A DNA stretch of 61,820 nt from a virus: positions 1 through 61,820 of the IMG/VR virus record IMGVR_UViG_3300049218_000500; one strand, 5' to 3'. Below the pieces are notes generated by a model that was given only the letters and a program-made list of their open reading frames with translations, was not told the origin of the DNA and ran no database searches. The stretch's first letter is position 1, and the number at the start of each line of letters is the position of its first letter. The position numbers and the translations under genes were made by a program. This document shows positions 12,575-55,171 of this stretch, in pieces.

Positions 12575-13801
12575 TTACTCGACGGCGGGGCGGGGGCCGC
12601 GTGCCGCCCGGCGCGGCGCAGGTGTGGCCGGCTGCTGCGTTGGCGGATTCTCGATGTCGTATTTGCAGTTGTCGGCCAGGCGGTACAGCGTTTCCTGATC
12701 GTCCTCGTGGAAGTTGACGACGTACGCGACCACAGCATCCAACTCAGCAACGGTCTTAGCCGCGCGCAGTGCCCCGTCAATTTCCTCGTAAGTCGAGTCC
12801 ACCGTGATTGCAGGGCCGACGTCTGCGGCACCCTGAGCCGGACCACTACCGGCCTCGGCTTGCACCGTTCCGCGGGATGTATCTTCGGTTGCCTCAGGCT
12901 TCTGCTTCCCGCCCTGGGCGACGGACTGCGAGTCGACGTCGGTGGCGTCGGCCGGCGCTCGACGACGCTGACGCGGTTGCGCATCGGGCTGTTCGTTGGA
13001 CTCGCGCAGCTTGTCGATGTCGACAGCGTGCGTGCCGTCCGGACGCTCCTCGAGGTCGATGATGTCCGTGGTTTCTTCGGCCGTCTGAAGACCCATCAGC
13101 AGCTCGGGCGCATAGATCTTTCCGAAAAAAGCCGCTGCGCGGTACCGAAGCATTACTTCGGGCATCGTTTGCCACTTGCTGCCGTTCTTGGTAAGCCAGC
13201 CCTCGTCGATCGCCATCTGGATGCTGATGGTCGGCGACTGCAGACGCTCGCCGGTTTCCTTCTCGATCGCCCATGCGTAGCACTCTTGATGGCGCACACG
13301 GACCTTCTTTTCGACGCTGACTTTCTTAGCCTTGCCGCCGTTCGGTTGGTCTTGCCATTCCGTCGCGGTGTAGACGACTTCCTTTGGAGCATCCGGATCC
13401 GACAGTGCGAAGCGCAATGGCGAGTACTTTCCGCACGAGTTGATCGCCGCGATGATGAACTGCGAGGACCACGACGGACGGCCCTCCACGATGTAGAGGT
13501 TTTGCATCACCATCAACGGGTCTGCGCCCATGCGCTGCGCCATATTCAAGGCGACGACACAGTTCGGCAGACCGTTAGGGTTGTCCTCCATGGCGACGAC
13601 CTTGCCGTATTCCTTGATCTCTTTCTGCGCGCGATACGCAACAGGGACTAGTGTCGAGTGCGACAACATCTTCGCAGCCCGCTGCATCAGTTCGAACGAT
13701 TGCAGGCTGCCGAAGCCTGGGGCTACAGCGGGCAAGCTATCGCCGCGCACGGGCGCTTGTGCGACGTCTTGGAGGGTGCGTGTTTGAGCGGGGGCGTTCA
13801 T
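12575..13801 (-). CDS. RecT-like single-strand annealing protein
   Basis: 408-residue recombinase of the RecT-like annealing type. The core (about 30-265) has conserved VALNMAQRMGADPLMVMQN, a WSSQF/IAAINS region and later LRYRAAAFFGKIYAPELL. A long low-complexity Ala/Pro/Gln linker follows, then a short helical domain (about 335-385) and a Pro/Arg-rich end. The start at 13801 lies 4 bases after the upstream stop; a longer reading to 13894 would enter the neighbouring gene. It would anneal processed strands during phage recombination with the nearby nuclease and ATPase. Confidence 0.84.
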   Translation of the reverse strand: MNAPAQTRTLQDVAQAPVRGDSLPAVAPGFGSLQSFELMQRAAKMLSHSTLVPVAYRAQKEIKEYGKVVAMEDNPNGLPNCVVALNMAQRMGADPLMVMQNLYIVEGRPSWSSQFIIAAINSCGKYSPLRFALSDPDAPKEVVYTATEWQDQPNGGKAKKVSVEKKVRVRHQECYAWAIEKETGERLQSPTISIQMAIDEGWLTKNGSKWQTMPEVMLRYRAAAFFGKIYAPELLMGLQTAEETTDIIDLEERPDGTHAVDIDKLRESNEQPDAQPRQRRRAPADATDVDSQSVAQGGKQKPEATEDTSRGTVQAEAGSGPAQGAADVGPAITVDSTYEEIDGALRAAKTVAELDAVVAYVVNFHEDDQETLYRLADNCKYDIENPPTQQPATPAPRRAARGPRPAVE

Positions 13802-13805
13802 AGTT

Positions 13806-14606
13806 TTATGAATGAAAGAGGCAAGTGGACCAACGGCTGCAGTACTTCGGGCTGCACAGCGGGCTAGACGGATTCGGCGGGAACATCCCGGCACGGAACA
13901 TTTCGGCGGCGTACTGAATCAAGCCGCGTTGCTCGCCGTCGCCGAGCATCACTTTTCGCGCGTCAAAGACGTGGCTGACGCCAACTGGTGCGGCCGACGT
14001 GGTGCCGAGCCCGATAATCTGCGAACCAACGGTCGGTTCCTTTGCCGTGTTCTCGTACATCAGCTGGTAAGTACCGAGCTGCGGCGCGCGGGCCTTGGTG
14101 CTGACGCCATCCTTGTTCACGACAGCGCGGCCGGTCTTGACGTCCGGAATCACGAGGCCGTCATCGGTTGCAGCCACGCGTGCCCGGTCCATCGTTCCGG
14201 TGAGCGTCACGGTCGTGCCGCCGCCGCAGTCGATGACCAACGGTTCGAGCGTCATTTCCACGGCGATAAAATCGAACTGCGGCGCGATGGTCGAGCAGTA
14301 GCGTGCGACCAACGTCAGGCCGATGCGCTCGGCTTCCTGCAACTTCAAGTCGTCTTGCTTGAAGTCCACTTCGTAATCCGGCGTGCGCAGTGACTCCACG
14401 AAAGCGTCAGCCGCGTCGTCTGGAAGAATCGGCGCCTGTTGCAGGCGCGCCAGATCGAACGCAGCGGTGCCAGCGTGGACGGCAGTGCCCAGCAGGGCGC
14501 GCAGACCCGCTGCCTTGCGATGCTTGAGCAGGTGCTCCCATTCGAACTTATGCGCGCAGTCGAAGAATCCGCCCCAGGCAGACGCGCGAATCGTGATGTT
14601 GCTCAT
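13806..14606 (-). CDS. PD-(D/E)XK exonuclease with four cysteines (Cas4/RecB-like)
   Basis: 266-residue nuclease. H44 in GTAVHAG, D140 in TGTMDRA, the D155-V-K157 signature in IPDVKTG and a Q176-xxx-Y180 motif match the RecB/Cas4-like PD-(D/E)XK family. C17 near the start and C251, C256 and C262 at the end are placed as in family members that hold a 4Fe-4S cluster. It lies upstream of the RecT-like gene, the usual exonuclease/annealase pair. The Fe-S cluster is inferred from cysteine placement. Confidence 0.88.
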   Translation of the reverse strand: MSNITIRASAWGGFFDCAHKFEWEHLLKHRKAAGLRALLGTAVHAGTAAFDLARLQQAPILPDDAADAFVESLRTPDYEVDFKQDDLKLQEAERIGLTLVARYCSTIAPQFDFIAVEMTLEPLVIDCGGGTTVTLTGTMDRARVAATDDGLVIPDVKTGRAVVNKDGVSTKARAPQLGTYQLMYENTAKEPTVGSQIIGLGTTSAAPVGVSHVFDARKVMLGDGEQRGLIQYAAEMFRAGMFPPNPSSPLCSPKYCSRWSTCLFHS

Positions 14607-15826: not shown

Positions 15827-16114
15827 TCAGTGGTCGCTCGCGAAATCGGAATCGGGAACGATCACTACGTCGCCGACGATGTCGTGTTCGACGCCGGGGA
15901 AGCGTTCTTCATAGAGACGCGTGGCAGCGGCGTTGACCGGGAGACCTTTGAGGTGCCCTACGTCATCGACCAACATCACGTGAGTGCGATCGCGCAGCAT
16001 GACGGAGTCGAGCGTGTCGGCGCCAATCAGGCGCTTTACGTCGGCGATGCTTACGGGGCTGGGCAATGCGACTTCTTCGCCGGACGCCCTGATCAACTTG
16101 CGGATGGGGTTCAT
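15827..16114 (-). CDS. First gene of the leftward early operon (hypothetical)
   Basis: 95 residues, related in pattern to a common phage family with MLVDD-xG-LKGLPVN, ATRLYEERFPG and IVGDVVIVPD-x-DFAS (DUF3846-like). It is the first gene downstream of the leftward promoter at 16161-16189, with a leader of about 40 bases and a GGA upstream of the ATG. As the promoter-proximal gene it could hold an antiterminator-like function, as N does in lambda, but no arginine-rich motif is present. Confidence 0.74.
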   Translation of the reverse strand: MNPIRKLIRASGEEVALPSPVSIADVKRLIGADTLDSVMLRDRTHVMLVDDVGHLKGLPVNAAATRLYEERFPGVEHDIVGDVVIVPDSDFASDH

Positions 16115-16160
16115 GTCGTTCCACTCAGTGCAGCGCTGGAGTGCGTCTGCGTTGAAATGG

Positions 16161-16189
16161 ATAGTAGCAAACGCTACTTATACATGCAA
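16161..16189 (-). promoter_or_regulatory. pL-like early leftward promoter
   Basis: On the minus strand a -35 TTGCAT (16184-16189) and a -10 TACTAT (16161-16166) are separated by 17 bases. Transcription would begin near 16154 and read into the gene at 16114. The -10 overlaps operator L1, and operator L2 covers the -35 and the bases just upstream, so repressor binding would block it. Confidence 0.7.
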
Positions 16190-16203
16190 GTAGCAAATGC
16201 TAC
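16163..16203. promoter_or_regulatory. Left operator cluster (two sites)
   Basis: Two inverted repeats with the same half-sites: L1 AGTAGC-AAAC-GCTACT (16163-16178) and L2 GTAGC-AAAT-GCTAC (16190-16203), centres 26 bases apart. The same motif occurs three times between the repressor and the cro-like gene at 19098-19150, so both clusters should bind the same repressor. Confidence 0.85.
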
Positions 16204-16394
16204 GTTTTCGAAATTCTTGTGGCATGCCATTTCGCCTCGCCCCTGAGCCGCAACGTCAGGGGTGCGGATCATGCGCAACAGCGACGTCAACTGTTTTCGA
16301 AAAGGGGGCGAAGTGCTGACGGAAAGGTATGATTGCTGTCGTAATCGCCTATATAAAGGCGGGGCACCACATCGATCATGCAAACGGGGAAAGC

Positions 16395-17132
16395 ATGGCT
16401 TTGATCAAATGCAGTGAATGCGGGACAGAAATCAGCGACAGCGCGGGGGCGTGCTTGAAGTGCGGGGCGCCAATGGACGTGGCGCGACGGGGCGCGGCAG
16501 TGTCGGTAACAGCGCCGCCGGGGGCAGTGAATAATCCAAAGAAGAAAGGGGCGGGATTGGCCCTCGGGATCTGCATTTTGGCCTTGGGTGTCGTCGTTCT
16601 CGTTATTGAGATGTCGGGGAGCCACGAAACCACCGCGGCCCAGACCTCTCCGCAGGCCGCATTGGCCGCATCGGGCATGTCGGGCTCAGACTTCTCAGAA
16701 AAGGCGCCGGGGCCGACTATCGCCGCAGCGTCGGAAGCTGCGGCGAAGGCGGCCGCCGACGCCGCGGAGGCATCCGAAGTCGCCGCTGAGATGGCGCTGA
16801 TGCACAACTACACGACAGAGCAGGAAGGCGAGTACGGCTATCAAGCTGCAATAGGCAACGATGACCGTAACAGCGGAATCGCTGCTAAGCCGTTGATGAT
16901 GATTCGATATCGTGGCGTGATTGCTGGGAGAACTACCATTGACGAGCAATCGTCGGAGGGTGGCGTCATGCGCTTGGATTGCAAAGATCCATGCGACTTT
17001 ATTCGCCTGCGTCTGATGGTAGACGGGCAAACCGTTCACACCGAGACGCTTCCTAATCACCCGAGCACCCTCGGCGGGGAGATGATGGACGATGCCCGCA
17101 ATGGAAAGCTGAAAGTTTACGCGGCGAAGTAA
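16395..17132 (+). CDS. Zinc-ribbon membrane protein in the immunity region
   Basis: 245 residues. An N-terminal zinc ribbon (CSEC and CLKC, residues about 6-27) is followed by a linker, one membrane segment (about 53-71, ALGICILALGVVVLVIE), an Ala-rich helical stalk (about 103-135) and a beta-like domain with CKDPC near 197-201. The start at 16395 has GGGGAAAG just upstream. It sits between pL and the repressor, where lambda carries rex. A membrane-anchored sensor or exclusion role is possible but only inferred. Confidence 0.78.
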   Translation: MALIKCSECGTEISDSAGACLKCGAPMDVARRGAAVSVTAPPGAVNNPKKKGAGLALGICILALGVVVLVIEMSGSHETTAAQTSPQAALAASGMSGSDFSEKAPGPTIAAASEAAAKAAADAAEASEVAAEMALMHNYTTEQEGEYGYQAAIGNDDRNSGIAAKPLMMIRYRGVIAGRTTIDEQSSEGGVMRLDCKDPCDFIRLRLMVDGQTVHTETLPNHPSTLGGEMMDDARNGKLKVYAAK

Positions 17133-17289
17133 CAGATGCCGAAAAAAATGCTCGCAACTGAGGCAACAGCATACGTATCGCCTTTCTATGTTCTTGCATT
17201 GGCAGATACAATATTCGGTTAAACGACTTACATTTCGATGTTATTCGTCTCAAGCGGCCCTGATAAGGTGGTGTCAAAAGGAGAAAAAA

Positions 17290-17508
17290 ATGACACCACA
17301 GGACATCGCTATGCTTTTCGAAAAAGCATCTACGGTTGCTGACCTGCAGGGTGTAGTTACAGCAGAACTGTTCGCAACCTGGGTCTCTAAACGCATTGAA
17401 ATTCTAAGTCAGGACGATATCGCGTTGCTTGTGCATGTCGGCGGCGCACTTGCGCGCTGGGAACGTGAGGACGACTGGGCCGCCGGCCGTCCTCATCGAA
17501 TGCCCTAG
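17290..17508 (+). CDS. Small protein related to the 59133-59390 product
   Basis: 72 residues with a strong AGGAG 7 bases upstream of the ATG. It resembles the gene at the right end of the prophage: both begin MTP-x4-LFE and share an (I/V)L-(S/T)-x2-D-x2-LLV-x-(V/I)G block. Function unknown. It is the only gene in this stretch with a good ribosome-binding site, and its end overlaps a possible leftward frame by 4 bases. Confidence 0.68.
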   Translation: MTPQDIAMLFEKASTVADLQGVVTAELFATWVSKRIEILSQDDIALLVHVGGALARWEREDDWAAGRPHRMP

Positions 17509-17714
17509 GCGATTGGCCTGTGTGCCGCGTCAGTCGGCGCGTACGAGCCATCCGATGCCACATCGCTTGAAGGAACACGCCGACGCGTTCCCGGCAGTAT
17601 CCGTCCCGTAAGCCTTGCGACGGTAAAACTGTCGGGAGTTCCTGATCTAATTCGACTTTCGCCGGTGGTGAGGTTGTACGTCTCGAAGTCAACTATCTCG
17701 ATCTGATCTTCCAT
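17505..17714 (-). CDS. Possible small leftward protein
   Basis: 69 residues beginning MEDQIEIVDFETYNLTTGES, which reads like a real acidic N-terminus, then becoming Arg/Ser-rich. No ribosome-binding site is visible and the second half is low in structure. Listed as a possibility only. Confidence 0.35.
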   Translation of the reverse strand: MEDQIEIVDFETYNLTTGESRIRSGTPDSFTVARLTGRILPGTRRRVPSSDVASDGSYAPTDAAHRPIA

Positions 17715-17865
17715 CGCACGTGTGAAAAGTAGCAGAGTGTAAGCGCACCGCCTGTCAGCGGACCCGAACCGCTTTAAATCGGAAACATGCTTATGTCGCC
17801 GACACTTTCTTATACGTTTCAGTGTGTAAAAAAGATCACCGCAGTCTAATGGCGTAATACGTGGT

Positions 17866-18171
17866 TCACCGCGGCAAGCCTGCTGCGTGATGCCCCCCGG
17901 CTAAATGGAGTGCCATGATCGGATTTGGCCCCGGGCGGGGATCGACGGCGAGGATTGTGCCCGCGCCGGCTATCGCCAGACAGACGACGAGAATAAACCG
18001 GTGAATGCGGCCGCGGTTGTCGCCCGCGTACGGCAGGTCGGGGTCTAGCGGCTGCAAAGGCTCATGCTCTCGGCCGGGGACTGGCTCGGGCACGAGTGGT
18101 TCGTCGGGGTCAGGCGCCGTCGGCGTGGCGTGGGCGTTCAGGGAAAATCGGGTGGAAGCAGAGTAGCGCAC
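17866..18171 (-). CDS. Possible Pro-rich single-pass membrane protein
   Basis: 101 residues: a Pro/Glu/Asp-rich N-terminal half (DPDEPLVPEPVPGREHE), one hydrophobic segment (RFILVVCLAIAGAGTILAV, about 58-76) and a short tail. It is divergent from the 18366 gene, with the LexA box between them. There is no clear ribosome-binding site. The membrane segment makes it more than a random frame. Confidence 0.42.
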   Translation of the reverse strand: MRYSASTRFSLNAHATPTAPDPDEPLVPEPVPGREHEPLQPLDPDLPYAGDNRGRIHRFILVVCLAIAGAGTILAVDPRPGPNPIMALHLAGGHHAAGLPR

Positions 18172-18313
18172 GATTGAATCGGGTGGATTGAACTGCGATC
18201 GTGACGCAAACTCCGTGCCGCGGGTGATAGGACACTGTTTAGAAGATGTATACGGTATTTTTTACATAATTGACCAGTCAAATTTACCGCTAGAAAACGC
18301 TCATCATTCCTGT

Positions 18314-18333
18314 TACTGTACATGCATACAGTA
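18314..18333. promoter_or_regulatory. LexA/SOS box
   Basis: CTGT-ACATGCAT-ACAG at 18316-18331, extended on both sides to TACTGT...ACAGTA. This matches the gammaproteobacterial and betaproteobacterial LexA consensus CTGT-N8-ACAG with perfect outer halves. Its centre lies 42 bases before the ATG of the 18366 gene and between divergent frames. No clean -35/-10 pair could be set around it by eye. Confidence 0.78.
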
Positions 18334-18365
18334 AATGATTCGCCAAAAAGCCACGGGGAGGGGCC

Positions 18366-18665
18366 ATGGCGCAGGAAATTGAAAATCAGAGGGGGCGTAG
18401 GTTCCAGCCAGGGGATATGGCTAGGATCGTCCATTCGCTGGACAAGACCCTCATAGGGCGCATTGTCGTGGTCGAGGAATGGCTTCCCGAGTGCGGACGG
18501 TGGGGGCTGTTGCTTATGACCGGACGCGCCGTAGGAAAATGCCTAGAGACCGGCCGTCGCGTGAATTCCCGGCGCTGCGCCTTTCTCGACAGTTCGCTTG
18601 AGCCTTTGACGCCCCAGGCTGCGAACTTGGATCTCGTGTGGACTCAGTCGTTCCCGATAACGTGA
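18366..18665 (+). CDS. SOS-box-linked small SH3/KOW-like protein
   Basis: 99 residues with GGGAGGGG just before the ATG and a LexA box 42 bases upstream. The body (RFQPGDMARIV...LIGRIVVVEEW...FLDSSLEPL) matches the product of 26777-27091, and both look like small SH3/KOW-type barrels. The gene converges on the repressor gene and overlaps its 3' end by 22 bases, so strong transcription would also make antisense RNA to the repressor. An antirepressor role, as for SOS-controlled Tum of phage 186 or Ant of Gifsy phages, is a hypothesis; no family evidence supports it directly. Confidence 0.8.
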   Translation: MAQEIENQRGRRFQPGDMARIVHSLDKTLIGRIVVVEEWLPECGRWGLLLMTGRAVGKCLETGRRVNSRRCAFLDSSLEPLTPQAANLDLVWTQSFPIT

Positions 18666-19087
18666 GTTCGATCATCGTCAGCAAGGCCGCCGCCGTCCTT
18701 GACGGCCCGGAGTAATGCCCCCATCGCTTCGAAAACGTCTTTTCGAATTCCAAGACTGTCGACTTCCCGGATATCGTCGACCAGCTTTTTGGCAGCTATA
18801 GATAAGTCGGCATCAAGGTCAGTCGGCTCATGGGTAGCAACAGCAAATCCAGGGTGTGCGTGCTGCTCAGTTCCTTCGGAAAACCATCCACGCATTCCCG
18901 GCAGCGCTTCGATCGCGCTTATTGTTTTCTCACGGATAGGCCGGTCTCCGCTCAGCATTTGGCGAATGAACGCACCATCCTTGTAGCCAAGACGACGACC
19001 GAATTCGGACTTATTCCCGGCCGAGAATTTGTCTATTGCTGCCCCAAGGCGGGCAGCACGCCATCGCTGAAGTTCTAGTTCGTTCAT
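18644..19087 (-). CDS. CI-like repressor without peptidase domain
   Basis: 147 residues. An N-terminal HTH (about 20-60, with KSEFGRRLGYKDGAFIRQMLSGDRPI) would bind the GTAGC-N4-GCTAC operators; a short helical C-terminal part (about 95-135) may dimerise. There is no S24/LexA-type peptidase domain and no Ser/Lys pair, so RecA-driven self-cleavage is not expected. The ATG at 19087 falls at the predicted transcription start of the promoter at 19095, giving a leaderless message. It is divergent from the cro-like gene. Confidence 0.85.
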   Translation of the reverse strand: MNELELQRWRAARLGAAIDKFSAGNKSEFGRRLGYKDGAFIRQMLSGDRPIREKTISAIEALPGMRGWFSEGTEQHAHPGFAVATHEPTDLDADLSIAAKKLVDDIREVDSLGIRKDVFEAMGALLRAVKDGGGLADDDRTHVIGND

Positions 19088-19094
19088 AACCTGG

Positions 19095-19100
19095 ATAGTA
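19095..19100 (-). promoter_or_regulatory. -10 element of a repressor-maintenance promoter
   Basis: TACTAT on the minus strand, part of the same GCTACTATCC block seen at pL. A start about 7 bases on would be near 19088, next to the repressor ATG at 19087. No good -35 lies 17 bases upstream, which would fit a weak promoter activated by its own repressor bound at R2/R3. Confidence 0.5.
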
Positions 19101-19150
19101 GCGCGCGCTACGGTAGCATTTGCTGCTTGCAAGCAGTAGCAAACGCTACT
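19098..19150. promoter_or_regulatory. Right operator cluster (three sites)
   Basis: R1 GTAGC-GCGC-GCTAC (19098-19111), R2 GTAGC-ATTT-GCTGC (19113-19126, one mismatch) and R3 AGTAGC-AAAC-GCTACT (19135-19150, identical to L1). Centres are 15 and 23 bases apart. A perfect 14-base palindrome CTGCTTGCAAGCAG (19123-19136) lies between R2 and R3 and may be an extra site. The cluster fills the space between the divergent repressor and cro-like genes. Confidence 0.87.
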
Positions 19151-19152
19151 AT
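19147..19152 (+). promoter_or_regulatory. -10 element of the early rightward promoter pR
   Basis: TACTAT overlapping the right half of operator R3. The predicted start, about 19159-19160, lies 2-3 bases before the ATG of the cro-like gene, so its message would be leaderless. The -35 is not clear: the hexamer 17 bases upstream is TGCTTG. Confidence 0.5.
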
Positions 19153-19161
19153 CATCCAAGC

Positions 19162-20639: not shown

Positions 20640-20668
20640 CGATTGATTTTTTCTAAGAAGGGGTGGGT

Positions 20669-21058
20669 ATGCAAGTAGGGGAGCTGCTGCGCGAACGGGC
20701 GGATCATGCGCGACGCGAAGAGGAGGGCATTGCGCTAAAAAGCGCTCGCTTCCTTCCGGAGGGGGTCATCGCGCAGTGCAGTACGTTCCGTGAGGCGGTT
20801 TGGCTTGCCTGGGAAAATCGCGCCTCCCGAGCCGTGACGAAGCAGCGCTTAGCAGAAGCGTGCGATGTCTACCCGTCCCGTCTGACCCAGTACGTCAATT
20901 CGATTGCCGTCGATGCGAATGGCAAACCTCGGCCTGACTTGCCGGCCGAGAAGATACCAGCGTTTGAAGCAGCGGTTGGAAATCGTGCGCTGAGCCAGTG
21001 GCTCAACCGGCGCGCGCGCCTGACCATCATGGAAGAAATGATCGCCGCGAGGTCTTGA
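20669..21058 (+). CDS. HTH regulator at the start of the replication operon (CII position)
   Basis: 129 residues with AAGGGG upstream of the ATG. A helical N-terminus is followed by a probable HTH (VTKQRLAEACDVYPSRLTQYVNS, about 58-80) and a conserved end (EAAVGNRALSQWLNRRARLTIMEE). It occupies the place of cII in lambdoid phages. It could control a leftward establishment promoter or its own operon; the direct repeat at 20617-20639 is a candidate site. Confidence 0.76.
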   Translation: MQVGELLRERADHARREEEGIALKSARFLPEGVIAQCSTFREAVWLAWENRASRAVTKQRLAEACDVYPSRLTQYVNSIAVDANGKPRPDLPAEKIPAFEAAVGNRALSQWLNRRARLTIMEEMIAARS

Positions 21059-21928: not shown

Positions 21929-22103
21929 GACACCCCAATCCGAAATTGTATTTTTTGACGAAAAAATCCGAGCGGGATTGGTTTTGCCGGCTTCCCAAGC
22001 GGCGCTCCTTTTGTTTGAAGAATACCAGAGCACCGACCGGAAAGACTCGTTCGTCTTGGCGCTGATCGGCCGTCTGTTGCTGGACGAGGCCCGGAAGCCA
22101 TGA
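21912..22103 (+). CDS. Small early protein before the methyltransferase
   Basis: 63 residues (58 if the ATG at 21927 is used). GAGGA lies 9 bases before the first ATG. The protein is mainly helical with FFDEKIRAGLVLPASQAALLLFEEY. It overlaps the methyltransferase start by 4 bases, supporting translation, and starts head-to-head with the DUF4145 gene. Confidence 0.62.
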   Translation: MKVAAMTPQSEIVFFDEKIRAGLVLPASQAALLLFEEYQSTDRKDSFVLALIGRLLLDEARKP

Positions 22104-23197
22104 CAGCCGCGATTTCGGGGTCCCAATGGGTGGACCGATGCCACTTTGGCGACTGCCGCGACACCATGCGTGCCATGATCGCTAATGACGTGAAGGTGCA
22201 AACCATCGTGACAAGCCCTCCTTACTGGGGGCTGCGCGACTATGGCGTCGACGGCCAGATTGGGCTGGAGCAGTCGTTGGGCGAATTCATCAGCACGTTG
22301 GTTGACGTGTTCGATTTATGCCGACAGCTGCTCGCCGACGACGGTACCGCATGGATCAATATGGGCGACAGCTACTCAGGCACGCGCGGCGCGCCCTGGG
22401 GGCCGTCGGAATCTTCGAAGGAGGCTCGCGCGATGACGGCGTCACGCCGTCGCGATGACGCGCCAATTCCTAGATCAGACTTTCGGGTGCCGGGTCTGAA
22501 GCCTAAAGATCTCGTCGGCCAACCGTGGCAACTGGCATTCGCGCTCCAAGACGCGGGCTGGTACCTGCGCCAAGACATCATCTGGCACAAGCCAAATCCC
22601 ATGCCTGAGTCGGTGCGCGACCGTTGCACGAAGGCCCACGAGTATGTCTTCCTGCTGTCGAAAAGCGAGAGGTACTTCTACGACTTCGACGCCATGCAAG
22701 AGCCGGTGACAGGGAATGCCCACCGGCGTGGCTGCGGTGTAAATCCGAAGGCGTCGTCGGGTTGGGATATGCGTCCCGGTAGCCATACGAAACTGGACGG
22801 CCGCTACCCCGGAACAGGCGTCGGCTTTGGCCGGGGCTACGACGCCGTAAGCAAGCCGCGAGTTAAGTCGAAACAGAACGAGTCGTTCAGTGCCGCTGTC
22901 GCTGATCTGGTTGATACTCGCAACCGTCGCAGCGTCTGGACCATCCCGACTCAGTCGTTCGACGGGGCGCACTTTGCAACCTTTCCCGAAGCACTGGTTG
23001 AGCCCTGCGTGCTCGCCGGCAGCCGGCCCGGCGACATCGTGTTCGATCCTTTCTTCGGCAGCGGAACGACGGGCCAGGTCGCGCAGCGTCTCGGCCGTCG
23101 TTTCATTGGTTGCGAGCTGAATCCTGCTTATGAATCACTACAGCGTGACCGTCTACGGCAATCCGCGCTGCAACTCGAACAGGTGGCGTCGCTATGA
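22100..23197 (+). CDS. DNA methyltransferase, N4-cytosine or N6-adenine type
   Basis: 365-residue amino-methyltransferase of the beta order: catalytic TSPPYW at 38-43 comes first and the AdoMet-binding motif FDPFFGSGTTG comes near the C-terminus, followed by RRFIGCELNPAY. SPPY is more usual for N4-cytosine enzymes, DPPY for adenine enzymes, so N4C is favoured but not certain. No restriction enzyme is adjacent. As an early gene it probably protects phage DNA from host restriction or marks it for regulation. Confidence 0.93.
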   Translation: MTAAISGSQWVDRCHFGDCRDTMRAMIANDVKVQTIVTSPPYWGLRDYGVDGQIGLEQSLGEFISTLVDVFDLCRQLLADDGTAWINMGDSYSGTRGAPWGPSESSKEARAMTASRRRDDAPIPRSDFRVPGLKPKDLVGQPWQLAFALQDAGWYLRQDIIWHKPNPMPESVRDRCTKAHEYVFLLSKSERYFYDFDAMQEPVTGNAHRRGCGVNPKASSGWDMRPGSHTKLDGRYPGTGVGFGRGYDAVSKPRVKSKQNESFSAAVADLVDTRNRRSVWTIPTQSFDGAHFATFPEALVEPCVLAGSRPGDIVFDPFFGSGTTGQVAQRLGRRFIGCELNPAYESLQRDRLRQSALQLEQVASL

Positions 23198-53941: not shown

Positions 53942-55171
53942 TTACCGAAGGACTCGCGCTAACGCCATTTCTATGGCGCTCATGATGCGGCGCTCTACAA
54001 TTGAGAGTAGATAGCCAAGAATAATCGTGGCCGCTACGCTTGCTAGCGCTATTGCAACGCAAGCTTTTGCGTTGGTGACATAAGACGCGAATTGCGTAAC
54101 TAAATATGAAAATAGTGTAGTTAGAACGATGACTTGCAAGAGATAAATCGAGAAAGAGATAGTTCCTAAAAACTTCGATATGCCGCTCCTAAAGAATCGG
54201 CATAAATCGATGCTCATATACGATCCGCTAACAAAAAGTATCGACATTACGAATTTTTCGTTTTCTTGCGTCAACAATAGGATCCACTCCCCAAAATTTG
54301 CTGGATTGCTGATCGGCGCATGACTTCGCAAGTAGTACTCGATCAGATAAGCACAGGCCACTAAGATAGGGCCACAAACGCGTGCTGCTACGGTAAGGCC
54401 GATTTTTTTTAACCCACCAGTTGATCTGATGTGACTGAGTAGCACGCCAAAGAAGAAAAGGGCGTAGTAATCCACGCAGTGCAGTGAAATGGCTATAAGC
54501 AGTCCGAGGACTAACTTCGGGTATCTAAGTCTTTCATGAATATAGAGATACAGAAAGACAAAAATTGAGCCGCGCAACTCGGTCGCCATTGTCCAAAGAA
54601 ATGGATTGAAGCCTTTGGGGTTTCCTCCAACGGCAAACACCGTAAAGAAGGGGTACATCAATGCGTCGATGGCATCGAAATCGGATGGAAGCAAAGTGCC
54701 TATCCAATCCTCGCGATGCAGAATTTTGGCGGCTGCGACATTGTTGACTATGCCTAGCCATATCGCTGCAACTGTAATAAGCGTGATTACAAAGATAGGT
54801 GCGGCGAGGCGAAAATATCTTTTTAAAACCATTCTGTCCAAAACGATTTTTTGGGTTCCAGCAAAGAATGGAGTTGAAAGTGCATCGCCGGAAAGAATGA
54901 AAAATATGTAAACAGCTAAAGGCCCGTCGAAAAAAAAGGCCAGTGCAGGCTGCCTGAAATTTGGATGTAGGGTGCCAAAAGATTCATTCCAGAAATGGAA
55001 TACTACGACGGCGAGCGCGGCCCATCCTCGAATGCCGTCGATCTCTTCGACTCGCATCGACTTAGGCAGCGCCATGGTAGGGGTGCCACCATGAACTGAG
55101 GTGTTAGTGCTCGCTTTGACCATTTGATGTGAATGATTCATTTGTGAGGGCGGCAGCATATCAGAAGACAC
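53942..55171 (-). CDS. Membrane acyltransferase (OafA/YrhL-like)
   Basis: Up to 409 residues, about ten hydrophobic segments. EIDGIRGWAALAVVVFHFWNE near residues 43-63 is the acyltransferase-3 signature (R-G-x-A-x2-V-V-x-F-H). Such prophage enzymes acetylate O-antigen or other glycans and change phage receptors. The DNA is much richer in A and T than the late genes, pointing to separate acquisition, and it is read against them. The start is uncertain: the GTG at 55171 is used, but ATGs at 55159, 55141, 55123, 55075 and 55057 are possible and none has a good ribosome-binding site. Confidence 0.9.
   Translation of the reverse strand: MSSDMLPPSQMNHSHQMVKASTNTSVHGGTPTMALPKSMRVEEIDGIRGWAALAVVVFHFWNESFGTLHPNFRQPALAFFFDGPLAVYIFFILSGDALSTPFFAGTQKIVLDRMVLKRYFRLAAPIFVITLITVAAIWLGIVNNVAAAKILHREDWIGTLLPSDFDAIDALMYPFFTVFAVGGNPKGFNPFLWTMATELRGSIFVFLYLYIHERLRYPKLVLGLLIAISLHCVDYYALFFFGVLLSHIRSTGGLKKIGLTVAARVCGPILVACAYLIEYYLRSHAPISNPANFGEWILLLTQENEKFVMSILFVSGSYMSIDLCRFFRSGISKFLGTISFSIYLLQVIVLTTLFSYLVTQFASYVTNAKACVAIALASVAATIILGYLLSIVERRIMSAIEMALARVLR

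Follow-up and report, generated by a model that had tools for sequence, protein, structure and literature searches.

Shared GTAGC-N4-GCTAC operators of a probable lambda-like lysis-lysogeny switch in a temperate tailed phage

The IMG/VR virus record IMGVR_UViG_3300049218_000500 is a complete virus record of 61,820 bases, and all of it was analysed here as one window. An integrase gene lies at its left end, and the presence of terminase, portal, tail and replication genes indicates a temperate tailed phage. In brief, the early region encodes, in order, a leftward operon with genes for a DUF3846 protein, an exonuclease and RecT, a repressor and a divergently transcribed YdaS-type Cro, a gene at the position of CII, and DnaD- and DnaB-like replication proteins (Table 1). 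Five copies of the motif GTAGC-N4-GCTAC are found in this region. Two are located upstream of the leftward operon and form the left operator (OL) pair, and three, named R1 to R3, are located in the 74 bp between the repressor and Cro genes. The operators between the divergent genes overlap the predicted promoters pR and pRM, and the further copies lie at the predicted early leftward promoter, pL. In our reading, a lambda-like lysis-lysogeny switch uses these five sites as its operators; we put the probability of this at roughly 0.87.

Table 1. Location of the predicted switch elements and of genes in the adjoining operons (window positions; OR, right operator).
Feature	Position	Strand	Details
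RecT-like annealing protein	12575-13801	-	pL operon
PD-(D/E)XK exonuclease	13806-14606	-	pL operon
DUF3846 gene	15827-16114	-	first in pL operon; domain match
Predicted pL	16161-16189	-	-35 TTGCAT (16189-16184), 17-nt spacer, -10 TACTAT (16166-16161); register same in most relatives
OL operator, promoter-proximal	16164-16177	-	GTAGCGTTTGCTAC on - strand; last three bases TAC start pL -10 (TACTAT)
OL operator, promoter-distal	16190-16203	-	GTAGCATTTGCTAC on - strand; pL -35 TTGCAT adjoins
Repressor, 147 amino acids	18644-19087	-	helix-turn-helix N-terminal domain, recognition helix GAFIRQML; short tail; no S24 peptidase
Predicted pRM -10 TACTAT	19095-19100	-	7 nt to repressor ATG at 19087; no recognisable -35
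Operator R1 (OR3-like)	19098-19111	-	centre GCGC; its TAC starts predicted pRM -10
Operator R2 (OR2-like)	19113-19126	.	GTAGCATTTGCTGC; one mismatch; pR -35 adjoins
Predicted pR	19127-19155	+	-35 TTGCAA (19127-19132), 17-nt spacer, -10 TATCAT (19150-19155); cro ATG 6 nt on
Operator R3 (OR1-like)	19136-19149	.	entirely within pR spacer
Cro, YdaS type, 95 amino acids	19162-19449	+
Gene at CII position	20663-21058	+	pR operon; kept beside switch in four relatives, 42-55% identity

Four of the sites are exact and the fifth has a single mismatch; the window contains no further site at up to one mismatch. This agrees with the sequence-only reading, which had placed five shared sites in the same two clusters. 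Under a first-order Markov model of the window, 0.0375 exact sites are expected, and no pair of sites within 60 bp arose in 400 trials. The five-site count set against this expectation rules out a chance origin. The identity between L1 (16163-16178) and R3 (19135-19150), also claimed earlier, can be read directly in the sequence and extends over 16 bases, AGTAGCAAACGCTACT. The statement that only the central four bases vary has to be corrected on two counts: R2 has an imperfect half-site (GCTGC), and the centre does not vary at random, as its composition depends on which site is considered.

The window is an entire virus record and so comes without a host genome; the motif was instead counted in the host genomes of relatives. 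A motif frequent elsewhere in the genome had been named as evidence against the operators. In ten genomes carrying a repressor relative, the exact motif was found only 1-5 times per 2.7-5.6 Mb, compared with 13-53 times for the reversed control. The motif is rare outside prophages, and its rarity in the ten genomes rules out that the sites belong to a host regulator or are a common genomic word. A literature search for the four operator sequences gave no paper containing them, and at the DNA level nothing in the phage collection matched the immunity region directly.

Relatives found by searching with the repressor came from viral contigs and Burkholderiales genomes, and a profile search then widened the set. 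The final set has 64 distinct N-terminal domains, or 49 members after clustering of the intergenic DNA at 80%; counts below that are marked as clustered refer to the latter. In nearly all relatives, sites are located at -23/-24 (R1), -38/-39 (R2) and about -61 to -63 (R3) from the repressor ATG. The phage loci of the family have a further OL pair with the sites 25-26 bp apart, and the half-sites are nearly constant over the 49 distinct intergenic regions. The lambda-like immunity circuit proposed from the window is supported by a lambda-like gene order and by a layout of three plus two operators that dozens of related phages share almost base for base. Scanning for the operator pair only, we found 19 viral records; the repressor is encoded in 13, some of them already known from the protein search, and the reversed control yielded five records in total.

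The S24 C-terminal peptidase domain is absent from the repressor of the window and present in 10 of the 22 aligned members of the family. Lambda-type cleavage stimulated by RecA is therefore not expected here. The short tail of the repressor is predicted to be helical at low confidence. On a tree of the repressor N-terminal domains, with the S24 state of four rows assigned by sequence motif and not by Pfam, the presence of S24 changes about seven times, and at least three of these changes are forced by strongly supported branches, whereas the operators do not change with it. The substitution R42G in the recognition helix is associated with loss of the outer G.C pair of the operator (P = 3e-8), as would be expected if Arg42 reads this pair.

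Lambda CI forms octamers through its S24-type domain. As in lambda, the repressor could join the two operator clusters in a DNA loop that is essential to the switch, and the presence of two matching clusters about 3 kb apart is in line with this. The authors of the CP-933P study raised looping for the repressor PaaR2, which is octameric in solution (PMC8630535). However, the repressor of the window has no S24-type domain, and the family shows widely differing distances between the repressor start and OL (about 0.6 to 2.9 kb). We therefore regard an essential loop as conceivable and rather doubtful.

The promoters pL, pR and pRM are predictions from sequence, and their interlock with the operators was followed through the clustered set. 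In 36 of 40 loci the TTG of pR adjoins R2 or shares one base with it; R3 fills the pR spacer. At pL, 32 of 37 loci have a 17-nt spacer. Where the OL sites are 25 and not 26 bp apart, the last C of the distal operator is usually changed to the first T of TTG (20/22 versus 2/15, P = 3e-6), so that the 17-nt spacer of pL is kept. It should be noted that, scored by consensus on the window alone, another pair overlapping the predicted pL came out slightly higher. The predicted -10 hexamer of pRM that starts in R1 ends in T in all 42 loci (42/42), and is located 6-7 nt from the repressor ATG in 40 of the 42. On the other side, the cro ATG follows the -10 of pR by 5-8 nt, most often 6, among those of the first 22 loci where the ATG was found in range. 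Because the -10 hexamers lie this close to the start codons, the repressor and cro mRNAs are both probably leaderless. Leaderless cI and cro mRNAs were found by rapid amplification of cDNA ends in PY54 (PMC4488713), and the repressor mRNA of CP-933P is leaderless as well (PMC8630535). In two loci, L013 and L051, an additional near-site is present at -83 and the cro ATG is more distant from pR than usual.

The predicted pRM lacks a -35 and its -10 is weak, as for a promoter that needs help, which raises the question whether the repressor bound at R2 activates it by touching the polymerase directly, in the manner of lambda CI at OR2. In lambda, the centre of OR2 is near -42. With a transcription start at the ATG, R2 would instead be centred near -32 and cover the -35 region, where a bound repressor should block and not activate, and R3 at about -55 would be a possible but unusual activating position. 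Low amounts of PaaR2 do activate pRM in CP-933P (PMC8630535); activation from R2 is nevertheless unlikely with the geometry found here.

The centre of the operators differs between sites. In the clustered set, G or C occupies the two middle bases of R1 in 38 of 42 cases and of the other sites in 12 of 148 (P = 7e-25). A-tract operator centres raise repressor affinity in phages 434 and P22 (PMC3317979), and by analogy the difference between sites suggests that the centre encodes graded affinities, as it does in phage 434. R1 is best read as a weak, OR3-like site that would limit repressor synthesis. As R1 overlaps the -10 and spacer of pRM, its GC centre might also serve a need of this promoter and not a lower repressor affinity. 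The proximal site of OL is placed in the same way relative to the -10 of pL and retains an A/T centre in most phages. Promoter overlap alone thus does not explain the GC centre of R1, and we find the promoter-based explanation improbable.

Cro gave a match to Pfam YdaS_toxin below the cut-off and a match to phrog_35, a transcriptional repressor. Its best match is YdaS of CP-933P, both by sequence (PDB profile E 1e-7) and by fold (Foldseek probability 1.00), and the profile comparison to YdaS from the Rac prophage of strain K-12 gave an E of 2.5e-6. The recognition helices of Cro and repressor have A-x-[IV]-R-Q in common, so Cro alone could account for the half-sites; that the sites are operators of Cro only and the repressor binds elsewhere is very improbable, though, since every operator-pair locus encoding Cro also encodes the repressor, and sites upstream of the repressor are retained at L010, where Cro is of a different type (27% identity), and at L014-L016, L019 and L021, where no Cro relative was found. 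The persistence of the sites with another Cro or none indicates that they track the repressor, the constant partner. The latter five loci, on Alcaligenaceae and Burkholderiaceae contigs, encode a 146 amino acid repressor relative with one upstream site, mismatched in L014-L016. In L016 and L021, a short predicted DNA-binding gene comes next after the repressor relative.

We suggest that the lambda-like switch operates as follows. The repressor would bind GTAGC-N4-GCTAC, probably as a dimer, and at low concentration fill R3 and both OL sites. With R3 in the spacer of pR and the OL pair at the -35 and -10 of pL, this would turn off cro and the replication and recombination genes. The promoters pR and pRM are placed back to back within 74 bp, where polymerase footprints would overlap, so that a block of pR would free pRM from competition. 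With more repressor, R2 and R1 would be filled and pRM turned off, making the repressor self-limiting. The YdaS-type Cro would read the same half-sites, presumably R1 first, thereby blocking the repressor gene and leading to lysis.

Several points weigh against this reading. In several relatives R2 is weak, and a detectable R1, R3 or OL pair is missing from some loci, part of which are cut off where the available sequence ends or are located outside phages. Since the P values take related phages as independent, they overstate the evidence, and the members with R42G may be one clade, in which case the association may be a single event. A fold search with the repressor gave no match below E = 0.001; the best matches were helix-turn-helix controller proteins of restriction-modification systems (E 0.19, probability 0.99), and the tail is modelled at low confidence. 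The transcription starts of pL, pR and pRM are predictions only. Sequence comparison establishes the sites, where they lie, how they interlock with the promoters and how their centres differ; from this anatomy and from the precedents cited we infer binding by repressor or Cro, the order of filling, the leaderless starts and the competition between promoters.

The switch of the window belongs with those of the lambda, N15 and CP-933P kind, and its operator is unusually constant; lambdoid immunity regions usually diverge fast in specificity. It shares with lambda the OL/OR layout, the divergent repressor and Cro genes and, probably, a leaderless repressor mRNA. The repressor family differs, Cro is of the YdaS type, and the position of R2 disallows lambda-type activation if the start is at the ATG. 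The operator sites of phage 434 are 14 bp long, as are those of the window. In phages 434 and P22, the operator centre tunes affinity by indirect readout (PMC3317979), which would be the likeness to the window, where the centre is known from its composition; their half-sites are different, and the S24 domain is absent from the repressor of the window.

The PaaR2/YdaS system of the Escherichia coli O157:H7 prophage CP-933P is alike in having a YdaS-type Cro, a short intergenic region whose operators cover pR and pRM, further operators (OL) at pL, a small repressor and, probably for the window, a leaderless repressor mRNA, and footprints of PaaR2 and YdaS cover both promoters there (PMC8630535). 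It differs in its 18-bp inverted repeats with the consensus GTTTAGTAA, four of them intergenic, in its three OL operators, and in an intergenic region of 97 bp compared with 74 here (PMC8630535). The immB regions of N15, phiKO2 and PY54 would resemble the window in the leaderless cI and cro mRNAs of PY54, and differ in having other operators (16-18 bp) and, in PY54, a Cro that binds only OR3 (PMC4488713). The RacR/YdaS system of the Rac prophage likewise has a YdaS-type Cro and three repeats between divergent genes, whereas the repeats are GCCTAA there (PMC5700373) and no homology was detected between RacR and the repressor of the window (hhalign probability 0.1). Variovorax phage VarioGold encodes a repressor and a Cro that are 47% and 46% identical, respectively, over the matched parts, with similar sites in place; its repressor has an S24 domain, and the operators are unmentioned in its paper (PMC9658991).

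More tentatively, and with slightly less than even confidence, we speculate that these loci form a widespread immunity group, of Burkholderiales where the host is known, in which the operator is frozen and the C-terminal domain of the repressor is repeatedly exchanged. The operator would be frozen because it doubles as promoter parts and is read by two proteins, and the rank of the sites would partly come from the uncontacted centre, GC at R1. In that case, immunity would be mutual between phages of different hosts although they respond to different induction signals, and cross-immunity between phages with different hosts is predicted. The group would also offer a ready natural collection in which to test how a genetic switch is shaped by operator centre, by spacing and by overlap with promoters.

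Loci that have an operator pair without the repressor were excluded from the family. L030 is a tandem repeat array, and L028 and L041 have pairs 27 bp apart in other contexts. In L032, L035, L036 and L037, pairs 22-23 bp apart lie beside other genes in viral records, where another regulator may use the same word.

An inverted repeat is located near the start of the pL transcript in the window (16113-16160) and in the pL leaders of relatives, e.g. L054, L025 and L023. The Shine-Dalgarno sequence of the first gene is often within the 3' arm of this repeat, and the 5' arm may partly precede the start. Folding compared with shuffles gave a mean z of -0.64, which is not significant for a conserved RNA hairpin at the pL start. 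Genes on the plus strand between pL and the repressor (16329-17508) are possible lysogenic-conversion genes, and the product of one of them begins with a zinc-ribbon-like part and has a hydrophobic stretch. The early right region encodes an N6/N4 DNA methylase (22100-23197), and an O-acetyltransferase gene at 53942-55171 possibly changes surface polysaccharide.
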